From a virus, in IMG/VR virus record IMGVR_UViG_3300030333_002851, positions 1 to 23,569 of that record: a DNA stretch of 23,569 bases; one strand, 5' to 3'. How positions within the stretch are numbered: the stretch's first letter is position 1; every line of letters begins with the position of its first letter. A program made the position numbers and the translations under genes. Shown piece by piece: positions 5,039 to 16,063 of this stretch. The notes under the pieces are model-generated. The model was given only the letters and a program-made list of their open reading frames with translations, was not told the origin of the DNA and ran no database searches.

Positions 5039-6830
5039 TCTTTTCGGTTTTTCCTTTAACTTTAATGCTATCGACTTTTGTGTATAATCCTTCTTTACTT
5101 GATCCAGCAGTTCTTGCCGATAGCAACACTCGTACCCCATCATAATTTCTTGTTTGTCCTTCAAGTCTAGACGCCAAGTTAACGGCATCTCCGATGACGG
5201 AATAGTCAAATCTAGATTTGCTTCCCATGTTTCCGACGATACAGTCGCCAGTGTTGATCCCGATACCAACATCAATACGAGGAAGGCCTTTGTCTTCAAG
5301 TTCTGTAATAAGTTCATCAGCTGCCTCTGAGATTTGTCTTGCGGTAGCTACTGCTTTACCTGCATGATCTTCAGTAGGAAGAGGTGCGTTCCAGAAAGCC
5401 ATGATACAGTCACCCATATACTTGTCAATTGTACCGCCGTTGTTTAGTATTATCTGGGTCATTCTATCTAGGTACATATTTATAAGTTCTACTAAACCTT
5501 CAGGATCATCTTTATCTTTATAATACTCTGATACAGGTGTGAAGCCGCAAATGTCCATAAAGAGGAAAGTCATTTCTTTTCTTTCTCCACCTAACTTTAA
5601 TAATGATGGATCTTTTTGTAATAACATAACCTGTCTTGGATCCAAATAAGTCTCGAACTGTTTCTTAATTTGTTGTCTTAATTTAAAGTTAGTATAGAAT
5701 TGTGCAAATGCTCCGTGGCTAAATACTAATATAAGTGATATAATAATCCAAGTAGGATTAAAAAGCAAATATGAAGAGTAGAAAAGTTGCCAAGAAGTTA
5801 CAGCGACGCCGCCGATCAGCAAGACGGATCCAATTCCCGCAAACACGACGTTCGACCATCTCAATAGAGCGAGAACAAGAAGACCGAGAATTAGAAGACT
5901 GGTTATCTCAGCAAGATAAAAATAATCAGGACGCTTAATAGTAATTCCGTCTATCATCGTTTTAATTAGATTCGCCTGTACCTCATGAGGATACATTTTG
6001 CCAACTGGAGTAGATATTTGCTGTGATCCTTGAAAGGTCGTTCCAATAACCACAATAGCACCGTTAAACAGCTCGTTATTCGCGATATCCTGCGCTCTAA
6101 CGCGATTAAATTTGTTCCAGTAGGCATTATATACAGAACCATCAAAGTTTGTCTCTATGAGCTTGTATTGCGGTATACGGACCCATTCTATACCATAGTC
6201 ATTAGTCTTTATTTGATAGGATATATCTCCAGCAGCTACTCTTAATGTTTCTAGCGCTAATGAAGGATATAGTTTATTGTTTGTTGATACAACTAAAGGC
6301 ATTTGTCTATTAATGCCATCTACATCTATTACATCTGATACAGTTCCTACACCAACCGATGCTTGTTGTAAATCTGGTATAGGTAATATTAGTCCGGGAT
6401 AATTAGCAGTAAAGTTTTCTGCTCCTATTGGACCTAGTGTTGCAGAACCTACATGATGTTCACGTGTAGTCTTTATTTGTGTCGTAGGCGCTGCAGCTAG
6501 GATAACATTTTTTTGCATCATAGATTTAAATAGAACTTCGTCTTGATTAAATCTATCATCTTCACCATATACAACATTTAATACAATTATATTATTAGGT
6601 GGTATTTGATCAATATACTTAGCCATGATATCTCTAGGCCATGGCCATTGACCTTCATTTAATATATCACCTTCATCAATATCTACTAATACAATCTGTT
6701 CTGATTCAGCTGGCTCATGTGATCTTTGTAAAAAATCAAAATAGTTTAGCTTTAATGACTCTACTAAAAATGGATTCATTGCTCCAATAAGTAGAGTGAT
6801 AGCCAGAGTTATAAAAGTATATCGAAACAT
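5019..6830 (-). CDS. CHASE2-domain class III adenylate/guanylate cyclase
   Basis: This 603-residue membrane sensor makes a cyclic nucleotide. A hydrophobic helix near residues 4-20 is followed by a large extracytoplasmic CHASE2 domain (about 20-300; VLVDIDE and WPWPRD are typical), three membrane helices (about 303-325, 329-347, 354-375), a linker (FETYLDPRQV) and a class III catalytic domain (about 418-603). Metal-binding Asp lies at D426 (FMDICGFT) and D474 (DKYMGDCIMAFW). Base recognition is suggested by K470 and S544, with N551 and R555 (VNLASRLEG) for turnover. Lys with Ser in place of Thr favours ATP, so cAMP, but this is inference. The catalytic site looks intact. I chose ATG 6830, overlapping the stop of the upstream curlin gene (TAATG), over the frame's first codon at 6875. 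A membrane cyclase in a phage late operon is highly unusual. Confidence 0.92.
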   Translation of the reverse strand: MFRYTFITLAITLLIGAMNPFLVESLKLNYFDFLQRSHEPAESEQIVLVDIDEGDILNEGQWPWPRDIMAKYIDQIPPNNIIVLNVVYGEDDRFNQDEVLFKSMMQKNVILAAAPTTQIKTTREHHVGSATLGPIGAENFTANYPGLILPIPDLQQASVGVGTVSDVIDVDGINRQMPLVVSTNNKLYPSLALETLRVAAGDISYQIKTNDYGIEWVRIPQYKLIETNFDGSVYNAYWNKFNRVRAQDIANNELFNGAIVVIGTTFQGSQQISTPVGKMYPHEVQANLIKTMIDGITIKRPDYFYLAEITSLLILGLLVLALLRWSNVVFAGIGSVLLIGGVAVTSWQLFYSSYLLFNPTWIIISLILVFSHGAFAQFYTNFKLRQQIKKQFETYLDPRQVMLLQKDPSLLKLGGERKEMTFLFMDICGFTPVSEYYKDKDDPEGLVELINMYLDRMTQIILNNGGTIDKYMGDCIMAFWNAPLPTEDHAGKAVATARQISEAADELITELEDKGLPRIDVGIGINTGDCIVGNMGSKSRFDYSVIGDAVNLASRLEGQTRNYDGVRVLLSARTAGSSKEGLYTKVDSIKVKGKTEKIEVYTI

Positions 6831-7528
6831 TATTGTTGAGTGACTGAGATTGAGCAACCGCCAGGAGTGTAACAAAAATTAGTTATGCTATAGGATCTGT
6901 TATTCCAAGCATTTTGTGTTACGCTAATGTCAGTTGGTTCTGTTCCTCTTAATATGACGCTCATATAATGGTCGCCATTATTTTTTTGAATGAGATCGAC
7001 ATCATTACCATCGGTGTAGATATCTAAATTGATATATTGGCTGCCGCCTTCTCTTTGCACTGTGTAGATGTCATTATCATCTCCTTCAACATGCAACCAA
7101 TATTCATGACCAGACGAAGAACTGTTTGTTCTTTGTGTCATCAAAACTTCATTATTATCGCCTGTGATGTTTATGTGAGCAAAGGTATTACCATACTCTG
7201 CATTATCTATTGTAAAGTTACCATTAGTTCCTATTTGATAACCTTGAGCAAGCTTTAAAGTATTATTATCTCCCCATACTCTACGAATTTCTATTTCATT
7301 TGGTTGGGTGCTTGAACCTCTATCTCTTGCTTGTTTAATAATAATATTATTATCGACACCATCAATTCCTTCTGATGCTGTCCACTGTGAAACTATATTA
7401 TTAAATCCTATTTGAGTTATGTCAAGATTAAAATCATTACCGTCTTGTTTAATAGTAATTTCATTATCATCTGCATATACATTACAGGATATTAATATTA
7501 AAAATAAAAATGCTTTTATATAATCCAT
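6830..7528 (-). CDS. Curlin-like secreted repeat protein
   Basis: The first about 19 residues are a signal peptide (FLFLILISCNVYA, cleavage before DDN). The rest is a 210-residue Asn/Asp/Gln/Gly-rich beta-repeat protein with curlin-like units: EITIKQDGND, LDITQIGFNN, ITGDNNEVLMTQ, VEGDDNDIYTVQ, TDGNDVDLIQKNNG and ISVTQ. Major curlins (CsgA) use Q-x-G-x-N strand-loop-strand repeats that form extracellular amyloid; these copies are degenerate but regular. Two cysteines near the C-terminus (NFCYTPGGCSI) could form a disulphide. It is a paralogue of the protein at 8866-9594, with matching first block and a shared Q-x-x-GG-x-Q-x-INL motif. The CsgG/CsgF pair nearby provides a likely export route across the outer membrane. 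Its start overlaps a 48-residue membrane protein gene by 13 bp. Confidence 0.75.
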   Translation of the reverse strand: MDYIKAFLFLILISCNVYADDNEITIKQDGNDFNLDITQIGFNNIVSQWTASEGIDGVDNNIIIKQARDRGSSTQPNEIEIRRVWGDNNTLKLAQGYQIGTNGNFTIDNAEYGNTFAHINITGDNNEVLMTQRTNSSSSGHEYWLHVEGDDNDIYTVQREGGSQYINLDIYTDGNDVDLIQKNNGDHYMSVILRGTEPTDISVTQNAWNNRSYSITNFCYTPGGCSISVTQQ

Positions 7529-7662
7529 GCTATTAATGTTGCTAATACCAAGCCCTTTGCAAAACTAATCCAGTATAACCAATAATCATCTATACGCATT
7601 GAGTCCTGAACTCTGAATACTAGATTTCTATGCCAATCAATAATTTGATTTAAATATTTCAT
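7516..7662 (-). CDS. Small single-pass membrane protein (48 aa)
   Basis: This short ORF reads MKYLNQIIDWHRN at the start and ends with a membrane helix (YWISFAKGLVLATLIAWII). The ATG at 7662 has a CGGAGA ribosome-binding site 6 nt upstream, which argues it is real. It overlaps the start of the following curlin-like gene by 13 bp, so the two are probably translationally coupled. No family recognised. A holin or a membrane anchor for the curli-like assembly are both conceivable. Confidence 0.65.
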   Translation of the reverse strand: MKYLNQIIDWHRNLVFRVQDSMRIDDYWLYWISFAKGLVLATLIAWII

Positions 7663-7731
7663 CTATTTCTCCGTTAGGGGCTTGAAAGCTTTACCTTTGG
7701 AATCGGTCTGTCTCGCTACATGTCGTCTCAT
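7663..7731 (-). CDS. Possible 22-aa basic peptide
   Basis: The short frame starts MRRHVARQTDSK and ends LTEK, filling exactly the gap between the late promoter/hairpin and the 48-residue membrane protein; its stop abuts the next ATG. No good ribosome-binding site is seen, so it may be just a leader sequence. Low confidence. Confidence 0.25.
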   Translation of the reverse strand: MRRHVARQTDSKGKAFKPLTEK

Positions 7732-7733
7732 AT

Positions 7734-7762
7734 AAAAAACTGACTGCTTCCAAGCTTGTTAG
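7734..7762 (-). terminator. Imperfect hairpin plus T-run after the FecR gene
   Basis: On the minus strand, CTAAC-AA-GCTT-GG-AAGC-A-GTCAG is an imperfect inverted repeat followed directly by TTTTTT (bases 7739-7734). It lies just after the FecR gene stop (7773-7775) and could end or attenuate transcription of the first half of the curli cluster. The stem has mismatches and a very tight loop, so it is only a candidate. Confidence 0.35.
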
Positions 7763-7764
7763 TA

Positions 7765-7772
7765 TATTTATA
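7765..7772 (-). promoter_or_regulatory. T4-type late promoter (TATAAATA)
   Basis: A perfect TATAAATA lies on the minus strand immediately after the FecR stop codon. In T4-like phages this octamer at -10 is sufficient for gp55/gp33-dependent late transcription. It would drive the 48-residue membrane protein, curlin-like protein, cyclase and DUF5658-like genes, although RNA starting here (about 7758) would meet the candidate hairpin at 7740-7762. Confidence 0.6.
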
Positions 7773-8912
7773 TCAATTAGATTGGTTAATTACAATAATT
7801 ATGTCTCCACCTGAGTTTAAATCTATTGTTCCTTCGTAACCTTCTACTCTCGCAGTTAATGATACACTTGAATCTTGCAAGACAGAAATCCTGATGGACC
7901 CATTGACATCTCTATAGAAAATAAGTCTATCATCCTGTTCAAATATATTAAATTGTGAGTCTTTATTAAATCCAATTGTTGCTCCTTTTAAATTGAATTT
8001 ACCGCCAGCACCAGCTGCTTGAGCGTCAGCTAATGAGACAGTGGTTCTTTCTAACTCTTCTACTATGTCAAGTAAGTCGGTAAGAAAGTCTACATCAAGG
8101 AAGTCTATATCAAGCTCTGAAAATTCTAGCTCTTCTGACTCCGCAAGGTAGTCTGTTTCGAGTTCATTGAACTCTAGAAAGTCTACATCTAATACTCCCT
8201 GATCTACATTTGTCTCTGCAGAATCTTCTATCTGTTCTCTTATTTCAGTTGGTGGGTTAACAATAAACATATTGTTAATTTGATTGACAGTTATATTTTG
8301 TATAGCTACAGGTTTAGTAGGTGTTGAATTAATTGTAGATACCATTGTTGCTTGATAAGCTTCATTTAATACTACAGTACCTGCTTCATTAGTTACAGTA
8401 ATTTCTCCTGATGCATCGCCATATTCATCTGGCAATAATATAACTAATGATCTACCTAACTCATCGACGGTAGTTGTGAAGTCTGTTCCTCTTATTGCAA
8501 TTGTTGATACTGGTGTTCGAATGTCAATATTACTTTTATTGACCATTGCTAATTTTCCTGAAGCGAAACGAGCAGTGCCCATTGCAAACCTAATATTCAT
8601 TTTTGATTTATTAGGATCAGGATCATATATGACTTCGTCTATATAAACTTTTGTATTTTCGGTAAGAGCCAATTCGGCTTCGTCTAAGAATTCAATAAGC
8701 ATACGACCATTTGCAGTCTCTGCTACATCATATAATAAAACTTCGGGAATACTTGATGGAGAAACAATAAAGGTCTCATTGTTTCTTTCGAGCTTACTTG
8801 CGCCAGTAAACTCTTCGATAGTACCGATGGGGTTAGCATTAACCAACCCCAATGGTGCTATAATGCTAACTATCGTTAGCGCTATCTTTTTGATTGATTT
8901 GAATTGTAGCAT
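7773..8912 (-). CDS. Secreted FecR-domain protein
   Basis: This 379-residue protein has a Sec signal peptide (basic IKKI, hydrophobic core, cleavage near VNA at residue 26). A FecR-type beta domain follows at about 60-160, with the signature FAMGTARFASGKL and NIDIRTPVSTIAIRGTDF. A very acidic segment (about 230-290) repeats DVDFLEF, ELDIDFLDVDFL and similar, and the C-terminus is beta-rich (about 310-379). FecR domains in surface/periplasmic proteins are often encoded beside CHASE2 cyclases in bacteria (from memory), and here such a cyclase lies downstream, suggesting a sensor-ligand pair. No membrane helix other than the signal is seen, so it is periplasmic or exported. The start overlaps the preceding curlin-like gene by 47 bp; ATG 8912 is kept because it gives the complete signal peptide. 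Confidence 0.85.
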   Translation of the reverse strand: MLQFKSIKKIALTIVSIIAPLGLVNANPIGTIEEFTGASKLERNNETFIVSPSSIPEVLLYDVAETANGRMLIEFLDEAELALTENTKVYIDEVIYDPDPNKSKMNIRFAMGTARFASGKLAMVNKSNIDIRTPVSTIAIRGTDFTTTVDELGRSLVILLPDEYGDASGEITVTNEAGTVVLNEAYQATMVSTINSTPTKPVAIQNITVNQINNMFIVNPPTEIREQIEDSAETNVDQGVLDVDFLEFNELETDYLAESEELEFSELDIDFLDVDFLTDLLDIVEELERTTVSLADAQAAGAGGKFNLKGATIGFNKDSQFNIFEQDDRLIFYRDVNGSIRISVLQDSSVSLTARVEGYEGTIDLNSGGDIIIVINQSN

Positions 8913-9594
8913 TTTCAGAATCGATATCCAGTGTTATAATTCCATTACAAGTACTTACACCTTGTGGACAAGTTCCAGACAACTGATTTATATCTACGTC
9001 AGCTGAATCTCCAACTAAGGTTAAATTAATTTCTTGCTCTCCACCATCTTTCTGTAGAGTGTTAATGTTATTACTGTCACCAGTTATATCAAAATTCCAG
9101 ACTACGTCGTCTGAATCAATATCAACATCAAAGACATTTAAATCGCCTACCACAGTTAAATCGAAATCCAACCTTTCAGCTGATGCATTAAAACCTTGAT
9201 CGAGATCCATTGTATTAGAATCACCAGTAATATCTACTAGGAAGTTAGAGTCATCTGAACTACCTGTTTTACCAATGTTCCAATCCCATGAGTTGCTGTC
9301 ACCATTCCACTCTAATGTGTAAGATGATGAGTCCGCATCTAATTCTCCGAACAATAAGTTTTCATTACCAATCTGATCGATATTGAAAGTTAGTGACGTA
9401 CCAGTTATAGGCATTGCAGAAGAACCACTTGAAAAATTGTTAAGTCCTATCTTGTTACCATAACCGATTTGGTCAATGTATAAAACAAGAGTATCACCTA
9501 CTTGTTCTATATTAATTTCGTTATCATCAGTGGCTTGTGCATAGCCGATAATTGGAAGTAATAAAATGCTAAGGCCTAAAATAAATTTATTCAT
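8866..9594 (-). CDS. Curlin-like secreted repeat protein (paralogue of 6830-7528)
   Basis: A signal peptide (FILGLSILLLPIIGYAQA) precedes about 220 residues rich in Asp, Asn, Ser and Gly. Repeat units include EINIEQVGD, LYIDQIGYGN, FNIDQIGNEN, ITGDSNTMDLDQ, ITGDSNNINTLQ and INQLSG, recalling the Q-x-G-x-N strands of curlins. Two cysteines near the end (GTCPQGVSTCNG) parallel those of the downstream paralogue. I chose ATG 9594 rather than 9609 because GGAAGAG sits just upstream of it. The gene overlaps the csgG stop by 8 bp, so export channel and probable substrate are translationally coupled. It is more acidic than enterobacterial CsgA and has longer non-repeat spacing, so amyloid formation is a prediction, not shown. 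Confidence 0.75.
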   Translation of the reverse strand: MNKFILGLSILLLPIIGYAQATDDNEINIEQVGDTLVLYIDQIGYGNKIGLNNFSSGSSAMPITGTSLTFNIDQIGNENLLFGELDADSSSYTLEWNGDSNSWDWNIGKTGSSDDSNFLVDITGDSNTMDLDQGFNASAERLDFDLTVVGDLNVFDVDIDSDDVVWNFDITGDSNNINTLQKDGGEQEINLTLVGDSADVDINQLSGTCPQGVSTCNGIITLDIDSENATIQINQKDSANDS

Positions 9595-10492
9595 TTTCTC
9601 TTCCTTCATATCCTTCTATGACCCAAAACCCTCTATCGTGGCCTTGGTATATTAATTCCAACACAGCTGCTTCTATAGCAGTACGTGTTGCGTAAGTCAC
9701 TGATTCATTATTTCCCACTCCGTCCTCGATCTCTACTAGCTGAGTTCCTTGTTCTATAAATCGGAAAACGTCTCCTCCAGATCCATAGCTCAATATAGTT
9801 TTTCGAGCCTGGACGTTTAATAATACTTCACCTGTCAATACAGATATAGCACGAACTGAAACTGTTACCATATCTTGCCTGTATCGTTTACTCATCCCAA
9901 TACCTAGCGTACGAGCTCCTCGTCCACCAGTTTTTATATTGCTGTCATAACCAATAATTCCACCTTCTATAATCATACCTGCGAATAGAAGTGGATCCAA
10001 ACCTTTCTCTTCTTCACCCGTAGCGGCAGCAAACTCCTTACGGGCTGATCTAATAAGTTGTCTTTCTCTTACTAAATGATCTAGTCCTTGTCTTTCAACA
10101 ACTCTAAACCATGTTCCATCACCAGCAGTTTTTAAAGCGTCTATTAACATTTCAGTTCCACCTTGAGTTACTGCTGTAGAGAAAGATGCAATGTTATCTA
10201 TTTCTTTTCTCTGTCCTGTTTTATCTAAAAAATTATAAATGGCCACGATTGGCTTTTCTTTTGCTGGAGGTAATTCCAACAATTGTATATAAGAAGGTAA
10301 AGTTACTACTTCAGGATTTTCAACACAAATATACTTTCGTGATAATTGTTTTTTTACACCTGAATATAAATCCTTCTTAAACCCTTCATCCCATCGACTA
10401 CAATCTTGAGGTGATTCACTCCATTGTGGAAATGAAGCACATCCTGAAAGTATTGCGATTGATAATAGCGCAGACCAAAACTTAACCGTCAT
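9587..10492 (-). CDS. csgG: CsgG-like curli secretion channel lipoprotein
   Basis: In bacteria CsgG forms the nonameric outer-membrane channel that exports curli subunits. This 301-residue protein has a lipoprotein signal with lipobox LSGC (Cys18) and the conserved CsgG core: IVAIYNFLDKTGQ, FSTAVTQGGTEMLIDAL, FRVVERQGLDHLVRERQLIR, MIIEGGIIGYDSN, TGGRGARTLGIG, TGEVLLNVQARKTILSY, VFRFIE and DRGFWVI near the end, in the same order as E. coli CsgG (277-residue precursor). An extra segment of about 30-35 residues with two Cys lies between the lipid anchor and the core. The constriction loop differs: Phe of E. coli F56 is kept, but Y51 and N55 are not, and the loop is one residue longer. I chose ATG 10492 because it places the lipobox properly. 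It overlaps csgF by 11 bp. Confidence 0.95.
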   Translation of the reverse strand: MTVKFWSALLSIAILSGCASFPQWSESPQDCSRWDEGFKKDLYSGVKKQLSRKYICVENPEVVTLPSYIQLLELPPAKEKPIVAIYNFLDKTGQRKEIDNIASFSTAVTQGGTEMLIDALKTAGDGTWFRVVERQGLDHLVRERQLIRSARKEFAAATGEEEKGLDPLLFAGMIIEGGIIGYDSNIKTGGRGARTLGIGMSKRYRQDMVTVSVRAISVLTGEVLLNVQARKTILSYGSGGDVFRFIEQGTQLVEIEDGVGNNESVTYATRTAIEAAVLELIYQGHDRGFWVIEGYEGRENE

Positions 10493-10988
10493 CGCCCCCA
10501 CCATTATCTGGATCCTGACCGAAGTTACCTGCTCCAATTGGAATTTCGATAATAGTCTCATTACCATCACTATCAAGGATGGTCATTTTAATATATTCAG
10601 TACCGTCTTCACTTGTAATAACTTCATATGTTATTGTAGATCCTTCTAAAACAAATGATCCAAATCTAACTGGATTATCGTTTGAGAACATTGATTCGAC
10701 TAATTGTTTAGCCATTTGTGCGTAGATTCTGCTTTCTAAATTTCTAATGAATTTAGCCAAGGTCGTGTTATCAGCCTCACGCTCAGCTGCTTTCCTAGCT
10801 GCCTCTAAAGCATCTTCTATTTGTTTCTTTCTTGAATGCTCCTGGTTCTCTATCGTAAGATAGTGAGCACCAGTGCCTACCCCGCTGAATGAGGGGTTCT
10901 TGAACTTATGAACTATATCTGATGCTGCTGCATCGGTAGCCAATATAGCACATAGAATAATACATAATTTAATCTTTTCCTTTCCCAT
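10482..10988 (-). CDS. csgF: CsgF-like curli assembly/pore partner
   Basis: CsgF binds the CsgG pore, its N-terminus forming a second constriction, and links it to curlin nucleation. This 168-residue protein has a signal peptide (IKLCIILCAILATDAAA) and a mature start DIVHKFKNPSFSG followed by GAHYLTIENQEHSR, matching the E. coli CsgF pore-plug region with F-x-F-x-NPNFGG and AFLLNSAQAQNS (from memory). A charged helix (about residues 55-75, KKQIEDALEAARKAAERE) is longer than in E. coli CsgF (138 residues). A beta-type C-terminal half contains ITYEVITSEDG and IKMTILDSDGNETIIEIP. The tail is Gly/Asp-rich. ATG 10988 has GAGG 6 nt upstream and is preferred to a TTG one codon earlier. Confidence 0.88.
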   Translation of the reverse strand: MGKEKIKLCIILCAILATDAAASDIVHKFKNPSFSGVGTGAHYLTIENQEHSRKKQIEDALEAARKAAEREADNTTLAKFIRNLESRIYAQMAKQLVESMFSNDNPVRFGSFVLEGSTITYEVITSEDGTEYIKMTILDSDGNETIIEIPIGAGNFGQDPDNGGGDDG

Positions 10989-11241
10989 CAAAAACCTCGT
11001 CGATAAAATGTTTCTCCTTGTATTGGTTTACTACATTTATCTTCTGTTGTAAGCGTATCATATCTTGATCCAACATCCTTGTCTGGTCTATAACACGGAT
11101 AAGAGCTATGTGTTGTTTTTCAAGAGCGGGTTCTAACTCGTTACTTACCCACTGCCAAGTGTAGTAAATAAAATAAGCCATACCCATAGCTAAAGTTACC
11201 GTGAACCCAAATTCTGAAAGTATTAATAATAGTTCTTCCAT
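10969..11241 (-). CDS. Small membrane/coiled-coil protein 2 of curli cluster
   Basis: A 90-residue protein with one N-terminal membrane helix (FTVTLAMGMAYFIYYTWQWV, about 13-32) followed by a charged helix that could form a coiled coil (ALIRVIDQTRMLDQDMIRLQ). It resembles its upstream neighbour in plan and sequence (short N-terminus, GMA(Y/F)F in the membrane helix, then helix with D-Q/N-DMI), so the two probably arose by duplication. The topology also fits small phage holins, but no diagnostic motif is visible. Its ATG overlaps the upstream stop (TAATG) and its end overlaps csgF by 20 bp. Confidence 0.75.
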   Translation of the reverse strand: MEELLLILSEFGFTVTLAMGMAYFIYYTWQWVSNELEPALEKQHIALIRVIDQTRMLDQDMIRLQQKINVVNQYKEKHFIDEVFDGKGKD

Positions 11242-11537
11242 TAGTCCCTTCTAACATCAAGCTTACCATCCTCTATGAAATTTTCAGCTCTAGCAATTCT
11301 GTCCGTATCTGGACGTAACTTTAGCATGTCGCTAACCATGCAATCTATTTTTATCATATCATTAGACATTGTTCTAGCTCTATTTTCTAATGATTCACAA
11401 AACATTGTTAAGGTTTCAATTTCGTCTATCTGACTTTGAAGAATTTGACGTAGAACGAGCCACAAAAAGAAGGCCATTCCTAGACCGCCACCGATCGGAA
11501 TGCCCACCGCGCTCATAAAGTCTATAAATTCTTGCAA
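11241..11537 (-). CDS. Small membrane/coiled-coil protein 1 of curli cluster (TTG start)
   Basis: This 98-residue protein begins the late cluster. It has a membrane helix (VGIPIGGGLGMAFFLWLVL, about 11-29) and a charged helical tail (IDEIETLTMFCESLENRA). It is a likely paralogue of the downstream 90-residue protein. The chosen start is TTG at 11537, because GAGG lies 7 nt upstream; the in-frame ATG seven codons later has no good site. The GAGG lies in the 3' arm of a long hairpin (11540-11579) that also contains a late promoter, so translation is probably possible only from RNA begun at that promoter. Function unknown: holin, pore partner or signalling adaptor. Confidence 0.72.
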   Translation of the reverse strand: MQEFIDFMSAVGIPIGGGLGMAFFLWLVLRQILQSQIDEIETLTMFCESLENRARTMSNDMIKIDCMVSDMLKLRPDTDRIARAENFIEDGKLDVRRD

Positions 11538-11539
11538 AA

Positions 11540-11579
11540 CTGATCCTCAATAATATTTGCTATTATTTATAAGGATCAG
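11540..11579 (-). promoter_or_regulatory. RBS-sequestering hairpin upstream of the curli cluster
   Basis: On the minus strand, CTGATCCT (11579-11572) pairs perfectly with AGGATCAG (11547-11540), and inside it AATAATA (11567-11561) pairs with TATTATT (11555-11549) around a 5-nt loop. The 3' arm contains the GAGG ribosome-binding site of the next gene and is followed by TTTT, so the element could also act as a terminator for the carbamoyltransferase gene. RNA started at the late promoter inside the element lacks the 5' arm and would leave the site free. Confidence 0.75.
11564..11571 (-). promoter_or_regulatory. T4-type late promoter (TATAAATA) of curli cluster
   Basis: A perfect TATAAATA octamer on the minus strand lies inside the hairpin at 11540-11579, about 27 bp before the TTG start at 11537. 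Transcription would begin near 11557, within the hairpin loop. It is the main candidate promoter for the csgF-csgG-curlin-FecR unit. Confidence 0.8.
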
Positions 11580-11597: not shown

Positions 11598-13040
11598 TTA
11601 GGAGAATACTTTTATCTTGTACTTCTTTTCGAAACGAACTGCGTCGTTTGGTGAGTTAACCATAGGCTCACCTCTGATATTAAGCGAAGTATTTAATAAG
11701 ACAGGACATTTGGTTTTCTTATACCACAATTCCAATACCTTTCTTAATATTGTATCCTCTTTTTTACCTACTGTTTGAACTCTACATGAATTATCTACAT
11801 GTAAAATAGCAGGAAGTTTTTTATGCCATCTTGGTTTTGCTTGAGATACAAATTGCATGTACTCACCATATGGACCTTCGAAATACTTTTCAGCATGTTC
11901 TTCTAATACACAAGGAGCAAAAGGTCTAAACTTCTGTCTCTTCTTAACCGTATTAACTAAGTCTTTAATATCGTTACCTCTAGGATCCGCTAAAAGCGAT
12001 CTGTTACCTAAAGCTCTAGGACCAAACTCAGCTGGACCATTTGCTACACCACATATTTTATGTTTCATGAGATGATTAACGATATCATTTACCATTTCTT
12101 TTTCATCATATCCATTGATACGATATCCAAGATATGGATCTGTCCAATTCAATGGACCACCATAAGCTAATGCAGCTGCACCTAATGATCCTCCAGCATC
12201 ACCTGGATTAGGCATAATCCAAAATTTACCTGGAACCATTCTATGCAATTTACTATTAGCAACACAATTTAAAGCAACGCCACCACCATAAACTATATTA
12301 TCAGAATACATTTTAGCTTTAAAAAATATTTTACTTAGCTTTTCTTCTAATACAACTTGTGCTGCAGCTGCTATATCTTCATGTTTATAATCATACAACC
12401 AATAGTTGTCTGCAAAGTCTCTAGGTATACCTCTATGTAAATTAAATTTAAATAATTCTCTTAATGCACTTTGTAAAGATTTATTCTCTTCACCGAATGC
12501 TGCCATTCCCATAAAGATATATTCTTCATCTAAAGGTCTTAGACCACACCATTGTGTTAATGCTGTATACCATAATCCAATTGATTGTGGATAATTAACA
12601 TTATGCTTTTGTTCATATACAGCTTTACCATTTTTATAATAACACTTCCAAATAGAAGTTGTTGTCCATTCACCAATACTATCTACTACAACAGCTGATG
12701 CTTCAGATAAATCCGAAGTTTGAAATGCTGCTGCTGCATGTGATTTGTGATGATGAAATGTTGAGGTAGGTTTCCAAGCCAATTGTCTAGGTGTGAATAC
12801 AGTCTTATATTGACCTGCATACAATTGTCTGGATTTCTTTAATAAAGGTTTTTCAAAGAAAGCATATTGATCGATCTCTTCACCAAACCTTGCATCGACG
12901 TAATCTCGTAATTGATTACTTATATATTTCTCATGCTTGTTGCCTGAGAACCTCTCGCTGTGAGAGGCAAATACTATATCGGGACCATCTAATACAGCGA
13001 CTGCTGCATCGTGAAATCCTTCACTCCATCCTAAAATCAT
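11598..13040 (-). CDS. NodU/TobZ-family carbamoyltransferase
   Basis: This family transfers a carbamoyl group from carbamoyl phosphate, via a carbamoyl-adenylate, onto sugars or antibiotics. The N-terminal Kae1-like domain shows GFHDAAVAVL (H10, D11), SERFSGNKHEK and the His cluster HHHKSHAA (H96-H101), then VVDSIGEW. The glycine-rich motif YGGGVALNCVANSKLH and DAGGSLGAAALA follow. The C-terminal domain contains GPAEFGPRALGNRSLLADPR and LLNTSLNIRGEPMV, which are hallmark NodU motifs. At 480 residues it is shorter than many members (about 550-600), but all recognisable blocks are there. ATG 13040 has GGAG 8 nt upstream. The acceptor is unknown; a surface glycan or a modified nucleoside are possibilities given the GT2 and oxygenase genes in the window. 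It ends the unit before the curli cluster. Confidence 0.93.
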   Translation of the reverse strand: MILGWSEGFHDAAVAVLDGPDIVFASHSERFSGNKHEKYISNQLRDYVDARFGEEIDQYAFFEKPLLKKSRQLYAGQYKTVFTPRQLAWKPTSTFHHHKSHAAAAFQTSDLSEASAVVVDSIGEWTTTSIWKCYYKNGKAVYEQKHNVNYPQSIGLWYTALTQWCGLRPLDEEYIFMGMAAFGEENKSLQSALRELFKFNLHRGIPRDFADNYWLYDYKHEDIAAAAQVVLEEKLSKIFFKAKMYSDNIVYGGGVALNCVANSKLHRMVPGKFWIMPNPGDAGGSLGAAALAYGGPLNWTDPYLGYRINGYDEKEMVNDIVNHLMKHKICGVANGPAEFGPRALGNRSLLADPRGNDIKDLVNTVKKRQKFRPFAPCVLEEHAEKYFEGPYGEYMQFVSQAKPRWHKKLPAILHVDNSCRVQTVGKKEDTILRKVLELWYKKTKCPVLLNTSLNIRGEPMVNSPNDAVRFEKKYKIKVFS

Positions 13041-13297: not shown

Positions 13298-13734
13298 TCC
13301 TTTGTCATCTTATCTAGCCAAGAAGAGTTACGGCCAGCTCTTTTTTCTTCCCAATCCTGTATTGCTCTTTTAATACTGTCTTCAGCTAATACAGAACAAT
13401 GTATTTTAATAGGTGGTAATTCTAACGCTTCAGCAATCTCTTTATCTTTGATAAGTTTTGCTTGCTCAATAGTTTTACCTTTAAGCATATCCACAAAAAG
13501 ACTGCTAGACGCAATAGCAGATCCGCAACCATAAGTTTTAAATTTGACATCGATGATTTCGTCAGTCTCTGGGTTAAGTTTAATATCCAGTTTCATGACA
13601 TCACCGCATGCTGGAGCTCCTGTTAATCCAGTTGCTACATTAGGATCGTTAGGATCAAACCTTCCGACTCCATGTTTGCCTGGATTGTTTGTTACTGCTT
13701 CAAATCGGTCTACTACCTTCTGTGAGTATGCCAT
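13294..13734 (-). CDS. iscU: IscU-like Fe-S cluster scaffold protein
   Basis: IscU assembles iron-sulphur clusters with cysteine desulphurase IscS and hands them to apoproteins with help from HscA/HscB. This 146-residue protein keeps every key element: C43 (GAPACGDVM), D45, C70 (TYGCGSAIASSS), H112 and C113 (IHCSVLAED), and the HscA-binding motif LPPIK (106-110). The N-terminus YSQKVVDRFE also matches bacterial IscU (Y-S-x-K-V-x-D-H-x-x-x-P), with an insertion of about 7-8 residues (FDPNDPN) before the first Cys. It is thus probably functional and would work with host IscS. No other isc gene is present here, so it acts as an accessory gene boosting Fe-S assembly. It lies between an SGNH hydrolase-like gene and the basic protein. 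No clear ribosome-binding site is seen. Confidence 0.93.
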   Translation of the reverse strand: MAYSQKVVDRFEAVTNNPGKHGVGRFDPNDPNVATGLTGAPACGDVMKLDIKLNPETDEIIDVKFKTYGCGSAIASSSLFVDMLKGKTIEQAKLIKDKEIAEALELPPIKIHCSVLAEDSIKRAIQDWEEKRAGRNSSWLDKMTKE

Positions 13735-13738
13735 ATTA

Positions 13739-14539
13739 TTATTTATCTAACCTTGCGGCTAAGTATAACCCATATTCCTTATGTGCTCTTGCATTAGGAT
13801 GACCTTGATCGTCACACGAACCAAACTCTTCTACAAATTGATCTATATACATTTGGTCGTCATTTATATCTATAGGTTTTTCCATATTTTGTTTAATTGT
13901 ATTCCATTCTTTCTGTACCATAAACTGACCTTCTGAAGTAGCATTCAATAACATATGTTGTAATTGTGATAACATTTTTCTACTAAACAATGTATGATGA
14001 AATTTAATGTTATGTGTTTTACAATAGTCTTGTAACATTAATGTATAGAATCCAGTCTTTAATACACCTGTTGATGTTTGCCAAATAGAACCATAAAAAC
14101 CTTCCCACGCATCTACCCAATAATGAAAACGCCAAGGTGATTGTCTTAATCTAGCAGGAGAAGATTGCATCCATATCCAAGTGTCTCGTTCTTTACCTGG
14201 AACAGTTCCTTTTGGAACTTCTTTAAGAAGACCTTTATTCCATAGATTAGCTCTTTGATATGAATATGAACCTTGACCTACATCTGTATTAATAAATTCT
14301 ACTCTATTCCAATCAGACCACATAACAACAAGATCGGTAAGGTCTTTATGCTGCCAAAGATTAATCATTGTTGTTCTAAAGATATAATCATTACTAGCAC
14401 CAGGCATACCTACATTTACCCAATCTGCATCTAGATCTTTACCTACCCAATATGGATAAGCACCTTCGTCTTCTTTTAATCCATGACCGTAAGTAAAACT
14501 ACAGCCGTTAAATAATATTTTTCTTTTTGAGTTCGACAT
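13739..14539 (-). CDS. SGNH/GDSL hydrolase-like protein 1
   Basis: The N-terminus NGCSFTYGHG carries the nucleophile Ser14 of SGNH hydrolases, block III is suggested by GMPGASNDYIFR (Gly, Asn), and D244-x-x-H247 (DDQGHPNARAH) near the C-terminus completes the triad, so the enzyme may be active as an esterase/acyl hydrolase. Long Trp-rich segments in the middle (WIWMQ, WRFHYWVDAWEGFYG) are unusual. Proteins of this kind are found in marine T4-like phages (from memory), with no known substrate. It overlaps its paralogue at 14508 by 32 bp. Deacetylation of glycans is a reasonable guess given the neighbouring carbamoyltransferase. Confidence 0.78.
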   Translation of the reverse strand: MSNSKRKILFNGCSFTYGHGLKEDEGAYPYWVGKDLDADWVNVGMPGASNDYIFRTTMINLWQHKDLTDLVVMWSDWNRVEFINTDVGQGSYSYQRANLWNKGLLKEVPKGTVPGKERDTWIWMQSSPARLRQSPWRFHYWVDAWEGFYGSIWQTSTGVLKTGFYTLMLQDYCKTHNIKFHHTLFSRKMLSQLQHMLLNATSEGQFMVQKEWNTIKQNMEKPIDINDDQMYIDQFVEEFGSCDDQGHPNARAHKEYGLYLAARLDK

Positions 14540-15292: not shown

Positions 15293-16063
15293 TTAAGTTC
15301 TCTCATCTTTTTCCAGATCATATATTTTCGCACGATCCTTCTGTAAAGATTCTTTATATTCATAAACATCCGTTGCACTAAGTTCAATTGCTTCGGGGAG
15401 TCTTCTTGTTTTTTTTCCTTCTTCATAACTTACCTGTTTTATAACTTTCTGAGATTCAGATTTTCTAAGCAATGATGGATCCATTACTGGAGCATTATCA
15501 TTTGCATCTTGATATGCCATACTGAATCTACCATATCCTTCATGGATTTTAGTAGGAGCAATACCACAATGATTTATATTACCTGGAAATATAACTACTC
15601 TACCTGGTTTAGGCAATGCTACCCAATCAGCATCTTCACTGCCCCAACCAAAAGCAGTATAGCCTCCCCAGTTAAGATCCCAGACCTTATTTGGATAGAC
15701 CATCATTGTTAAAGCTTTTTTATTTGTTGGAGAGTCTTTATGCCACATTGGCGAGTCACCAAATTTAAAATTATTAATAAGACATCTTTGAAAGTATGGA
15801 ATATCTATATCAAAATATTCTTTTAATCTTTTACGTAAGACTAATCTTGTGTCTTCTATTAATTGGTGTTTCCAGATCCACATATCCCATTGAAGGGATC
15901 TACATAAGGTAGCGCTCTTAGCACCATACTCTTGCATGTCATATCCTAAGCCCCAAGAAAGATAAGTGCCAAACCAATCATCTAACTCTTCAATTTCGCC
16001 AGCGTGTAGTATATTATCAACTATCGTTAGCGGACCATTCTGTTTTAGCTTTGGATCTATCAT
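15293..16063 (-). CDS. 2OG-Fe(II) oxygenase
   Basis: A 256-residue protein with the dioxygenase metal triad H108-x-D110 (PMWHKDSP), H165 (NINHCGIAPT) and R179 (GYGRFSMAYQ) for 2-oxoglutarate. The strands between (ALTMMVYPN, VWDLNWGGYTAF, GRVVIFPGNINH) fit the double-stranded beta-helix of 2OG oxygenases. A C-terminal helical tail of about 60 charged residues is extra. The substrate is unknown. The 5' end overlaps the preceding 63-residue gene by 47 bp, in another frame. Confidence 0.85.
   Translation of the reverse strand: MIDPKLKQNGPLTIVDNILHAGEIEELDDWFGTYLSWGLGYDMQEYGAKSATLCRSLQWDMWIWKHQLIEDTRLVLRKRLKEYFDIDIPYFQRCLINNFKFGDSPMWHKDSPTNKKALTMMVYPNKVWDLNWGGYTAFGWGSEDADWVALPKPGRVVIFPGNINHCGIAPTKIHEGYGRFSMAYQDANDNAPVMDPSLLRKSESQKVIKQVSYEEGKKTRRLPEAIELSATDVYEYKESLQKDRAKIYDLEKDERT

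Follow-up and report, generated by a model that had tools for sequence, protein, structure and literature searches.

A late promoter inside a hairpin at the head of the curli-like cluster

How might translation of a curli-like gene cluster in a marine phage with T4-like genes be confined to late infection? The question arises from the window (the whole stretch of DNA analysed here, 23,569 nucleotides), a 23.6-kb virus record with T4-like genes, in which a late promoter lies within a hairpin that also holds the ribosome site of the first gene of such a cluster. The genes concerned, in the order in which they are read, are:

11598-13040, minus strand: carbamoyltransferase, upstream of the cluster and co-directional with it; possible source of read-through RNA
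11241-11537, minus strand: 98-aa protein with a hydrophobic N-terminal segment, phrog_18771; first gene of the curli-like cluster
10969-11241, minus strand: tandem paralogue, phrog_18771; stop/start overlap TAATG with the first gene
10482-10991, minus strand: CsgF (PF10614, E 4e-16)
9587-10576, minus strand: CsgG (PF03783, E 6e-53); the true start is probably nearer 10480
8866-9609, minus strand: curlin-repeat-like protein; overlaps the FecR-domain gene; position as in HTVC008M and Melnitz
7773-8912, minus strand: FecR-domain protein; overlaps the curlin-repeat-like gene; position as in HTVC008M and Melnitz

The full order of the cluster is phrog_18771, tandem paralogue, CsgF, CsgG, curlin-like, FecR-domain, second curlin-like and CHASE2 adenylate cyclase, and the annotation of Pelagibacter phage HTVC008M and Methylophilales phage Melnitz gives a closely similar one; the cluster itself has been described (PMC7029224, PMC9004378). 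Both of these phages are annotated with gp55 (late sigma factor), gp33 (late coactivator) and gp45 (sliding clamp), which, the window being a fragment, were seen only in the relatives. Judging by their TAATG stop/start overlap, the first two phrog_18771 genes are probably translationally coupled. Since the next genes also overlap in a chain, control exerted at the first start could pass down the cluster by translational coupling. Elsewhere in the cluster, a second TATAAATA directly follows the FecR stop codon (window 7515-7772, minus strand); after it comes an unlisted 48-aa ORF from 7662 (MKYLNQIIDWHRN...), with GGAG before its ATG and a hydrophobic C-terminal half, which overlaps the start of the second curlin-like gene.

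Between the end of the carbamoyltransferase gene and the hairpin lie 18 nt, and the hairpin comprises the following features:

11540-11579, minus strand: hairpin enclosing the late promoter, the predicted late start site and the ribosome site (MFE pairing of 11582-11561 with 11555-11537)
11564-11571, minus strand: TATAAATA, T4-type late (gp55) promoter box, in the 5' half of the hairpin
11558, minus strand: predicted late transcription start (+1) by T4 numbering, in the hairpin loop; -1 is C and +1 is A
11545-11548, minus strand: Shine-Dalgarno GAGG, 7 nt 5' of the start codon; paired in the predicted read-through RNA
11535-11537, minus strand: TTG start codon; residue 1 aligns with the ATG of orthologues

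Read 5' to 3' on the minus strand, the order is CTGATCCT-TATAAATA-ATAGC-AAATATTATT-GAGG-ATCAGTT-TTG. The outer arms, CTGATCCT and AGGATCAG, form a perfect 8 bp, and AATAATA and TATTATT lie inside the hairpin. The preliminary description had drawn an 8+7-bp hairpin around the late promoter, with the GAGG of the TTG-initiated gene in its 3' arm; the MFE fold recovers the same object in slightly different form, as 13 bp, a 3-nt bulge, 6 bp and a 5-nt loop, at -18.5 kcal/mol (a value equalled by 2 of 200 shuffles). In this fold GAGG (11548-11545) pairs with 11571-11574; the box (11571-11564) has its first two bases paired to the strand that carries the ribosome site, and the pair that closes the stem includes the first base of the TTG codon. 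That TTG is the start is supported by the alignment of residue 1 with the orthologues' ATG. T4 numbering places the late box at -13 to -6 (PMC2988020), which puts the predicted +1 of the window at 11558. Rfam, run on the 23.6-kb window, matched a tRNA and nothing else, and when viral contigs were searched for exact copies of the hairpin sequence, a single match came up, unrelated and in surroundings dissimilar to the window.

On the combined evidence of this anatomy and of the analyses below, we consider it likely, with good confidence, that the element works like that of T4 gene e, a switch in which promoter position limits translation to late infection. RNA read through from the carbamoyltransferase region would carry both arms, fold, and so make GAGG and the margin of the TTG codon inaccessible; when late (gp55-type) polymerase initiates at TATAAATA, the RNA would begin in the loop (predicted at 11558), have no 5' arm and carry an open 21-nt leader with GAGG. 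The position of initiation would thereby decide whether the 5' arm is present in the RNA. We infer the existence of the read-through RNA, the start at 11558 and the difference in translation. The parallel with T4 gene e and other genes, already drawn in the preliminary description, concerns a published mode of control (PMC3014915, PMC2988022), and our scan (below) recovers T4 cases. As in the gene e leader, and in those of soc, 49, 26, I-TevI, I-TevII, segB and Aeh1 mobE, the late box lies in or beside the 5' arm, the ribosome site lies in the 3' arm, and the late RNA is without the 5' arm (in the window, by prediction). Unlike those cases, the window element would control a curli-like (csgF/csgG) cluster at its first gene, with a TTG start, in a relative of the pelagimyophages, and its sequence is unrelated. 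If our reading is right, a control device of T4 also operates in abundant marine phages of SAR11-like hosts, at their puzzling curli cluster, the timing of which bears on whether that cluster has a role in lysis or does something else.

Energetic cost of opening the start region

As a measure of burial we took the cost of opening the start region on the read-through RNA minus that on the late RNA (ddG), and compared it with the values obtained when box and leader were held fixed and the upstream sequence was shuffled. Thermodynamics were computed for 37 C; the sea is colder, and the stems would be tighter there. Freeing the start region of the window was computed to cost 15.3 kcal/mol on the read-through RNA versus 1.8 on the late RNA, and opening GAGG alone 10.1 versus 1.5 kcal/mol. 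The fold and these opening energies bear out the earlier claim that the late box is nested in a hairpin burying the ribosome site, and the claim that late RNA starts in the loop and stays open agrees with the prediction from T4 numbering and the 1.8 kcal/mol opening cost. The resulting ddG amounts to 15.2 kcal/mol, or 13.6 when less downstream sequence is included, and none of 4000 upstream shuffles buried the start region as deeply: the placement of the hairpin around box and leader is not chance.

This test bears directly on the view that a late promoter and Shine-Dalgarno leader of the ordinary sort simply happen to be surrounded by a chance fold. That view draws on the frequency of 8-bp stems in the A+T-rich window, where four perfect ones were seen and 2.1 are expected in shuffles. 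Such stems being ordinary, the stem alone proves little, which is why a position-tied test was used; its outcome (0/4000) speaks against a chance fold, as does the specificity of the scan when applied to T4, and we regard this explanation as quite unlikely. Likewise, TATAAATA is not over-represented in the window (four seen versus 4.4 expected), and over-representation was therefore not used as evidence. A cruder test, in which contiguous stems were permuted across the whole set of long-leader genes, showed no more than a modest excess, due in part to A/T-only stems, and for this reason it was replaced by the opening-energy test.

For the scan, the cut was set at ddG >= 8 kcal/mol and p <= 0.05. 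Among 31 box-gene pairs of T4, five passed: e, I-TevII, 49, I-TevI and 26. Since all five are published as hairpin-controlled (PMC3014915, PMC2988022), the scan is specific, and since it returned only such genes from T4, the window hairpin most likely belongs to the same known kind. With the same scan T4 gene e has a ddG of 13.4 and the window 13.6-15.2 kcal/mol; the window thus scores as high as the best T4 case.

Hairpins and terminators in related phages

We gathered 235 distinct upstreams of the phrog_18771 first gene. The box-to-ATG spacing is 5 nt in 94 of them, 4 nt in none and 6 nt in eight; 43 of the 235, the window included, have the box 10-40 nt from the start, and in 71 the 50 nt before the start contain no exact box. 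The window's nearest orthologues (66-69% identity) are without such a stem, and almost all of them fall into the 5-nt class; the stem is therefore not conserved in sequence, a point in favour of a chance fold. Against this, the T4-calibrated cut is passed by 11 of the 43 long-leader upstreams (the window, L232-L234, L319/L326, L392, L393, L102 and L120/L150), in at least five sequence-unrelated forms. The hairpin of L232-L234 has an 11-bp stem, CTCTCCAGTTATAAATAGTTGTATAACTGGAG, and that of L319/L326 reads CTCTCCT...AGGAGAG, while in L392 and L393 the 5' arm overlaps the late box itself. Because hairpins of one topology but unrelated sequence turn up in other lineages, the comparison points to a solution reached repeatedly and not to a fortuitous fold. 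On the protein tree, which is itself poorly resolved, at least eight changes are required for the hairpin state.

The preliminary description had looked to related phages for covariation of the stem, and had named its non-conservation there as grounds for refutation. Taken literally, that refuting outcome is what the nearest orthologues show, although the topology recurs elsewhere. As to covariation, the two stem differences among L232, L233 and L234 (C-G to U-G and G-C to G-U) both conserve pairing, but no double compensatory change occurs within an unambiguous alignment. Stems are weak (ddG 2-6) in half of the L312 group, so that turnover is evident and the stem is not tightly kept there. 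Some T4 relatives, too, retain gene e without the hairpin (PMC3014915), and conservation is not a strict defining feature. The lack of any conserved sequence among the hairpin-bearing relatives also bears on a further explanation, in which the stem, as DNA or RNA, would be bound by a protein (a repressor, say, or an RNA-binding regulator of the phage), burial of the ribosome site being secondary. A near-palindrome over a promoter is the classical layout of an operator, and T4 I-TevI binds its own late promoter (PMC2988022); a protein site would, however, require a shared sequence, and we think this explanation very improbable.

Could the main role of the hairpin instead be to end the carbamoyltransferase transcript as an intrinsic terminator, one that late RNA avoids because its promoter lies in the loop? 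A stem of 8-13 bp between two co-directional genes, followed by TTTT, would suit such a role, and a clear terminator just before the late box is found in 64 of 120 leaderless-type upstreams (spacing 5-9, within 100 nt), indicating that insulation of the curli cluster is common. The window hairpin, however, lacks what we required of an intrinsic terminator, namely a G+C-rich stem followed by at least five T in eight: it has only four T, too short a run for the terminator scan, which gave no call, the inner half of its stem is A/T only, and the start codon itself lies within the stem and T-run. The earlier suggestion that the hairpin may also terminate upstream transcripts thus found no support, and we judge that it is unlikely to be mainly a terminator. 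Among long leaders, an upstream terminator is present in none of 15 hairpin-bearing cases versus 9 of 28 others (Fisher 0.017, uncorrected for kinship), a contrast that speaks for the proposed switch. In some upstreams of the 5-nt class, L281, L306 and L044 among them, strong intrinsic terminators run straight into the late box, e.g. CCCCTTTTTTTATATAAATAG, their T-run and the promoter abutting or overlapping.

A hairpin otherwise similar to that of the window, followed by a T6 run and hence a further point for termination, occurs in Melnitz (MZ577097) near 76363 (L178 26333-26363), where the late box lies in the loop of a 9-bp hairpin. It shares with the window its general plan (AATCCCTTG, TATAAATA in the loop, CAAGGGATT and a T run) and a ribosome site, AAGGG, in the 3' arm, with a ddG of 15.8; it differs in preceding another gene, that of the gp5 OB-domain protein, and in its longer T run, on account of which it could be both a terminator and a lock on the ribosome site.

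Late boxes five nucleotides before the start codon

Most relatives appear to reach the same end as the putative switch of the window by a late message that starts exactly at the start codon. This other arrangement, in which exactly 5 nt separate the late box from ATG, was overlooked in the preliminary description, and as a family-wide feature it is a more novel lead than the hairpin device. Among all genes in the collected pelagimyophage-type DNA, the spacing is 5 nt in 86 of 320 box-ORF pairs (many of the 86 being the curli gene itself), 4 nt in two and 6 nt in seven. HTVC008M has nine genes with the 5-nt spacing versus 0.2 expected from permuted motifs, and all nine match annotated starts, including gp2-like, gp25-like and tape-measure genes and csgF. 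Members of this class in HTVC008M include the genes with starts at 6280, 7562, 19456, 31132 and 49760 and, on the minus strand, at 16007 and 18916. Consensus boxes with a nearby ORF are never at this spacing in T4 (0/24), syn9 (0/5) or P-SSM2 (0/15); P-SSM2 has a single variant box at 5 nt.

Given T4 numbering, a 5-nt spacing puts +1 on the A of AUG, and the late mRNAs of this class are accordingly predicted, from sequence, to be leaderless. In the 5-nt class of the curli gene a pyrimidine precedes the A of ATG in 98%, which fits the expectation for -1/+1 of a transcription start. Shine-Dalgarno motifs occur in 1 of these 94 upstreams versus 23 of 43 in the long-leader class. The box occupies the Shine-Dalgarno slot (-13 to -6), so that read-through RNA would be without a ribosome site. 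Compared with the window, then, these promoters (in HTVC008M and many contigs) have the same gene and the same T4-type box, and translation would likewise depend on late initiation; they differ in having no hairpin, no Shine-Dalgarno sequence and a predicted leaderless mRNA.

We find it reasonably likely that T4-type late promoters in pelagimyophages give leaderless late mRNAs, with only the late RNA translatable, and that at the curli cluster the leaderless and the Shine-Dalgarno-plus-hairpin layouts interchange in evolution, both serving late-only control; phage bS21 might favour such messages. This protein is annotated in HTVC008M and in Melnitz, and that of HTVC008M is reported, in work cited in PMC9723584, to enter E. 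coli ribosomes. We found no earlier report of leaderless late transcripts in pelagimyophages in the open-access literature. Late promoter prediction had failed in these phages (PMC7029224); the fixed box-to-ATG spacing locates many of their late promoters and predicts leaderless late translation.

Two smaller observations concern the same spacing and the same boxes. Within the window, GATAAATA (13734-13747, minus strand) has the 5-nt spacing to the ATG of a gene for a 146-aa NifU/IscU-like protein (named by inspection only), making this a candidate leaderless late gene. In four upstreams (L011, L013, L017 and L060), the ATG is preceded by repeats, made of A and T only, of the late box and its complement (TTTATTATAAATA...AATAATAAATT); some of these upstreams have two boxes.
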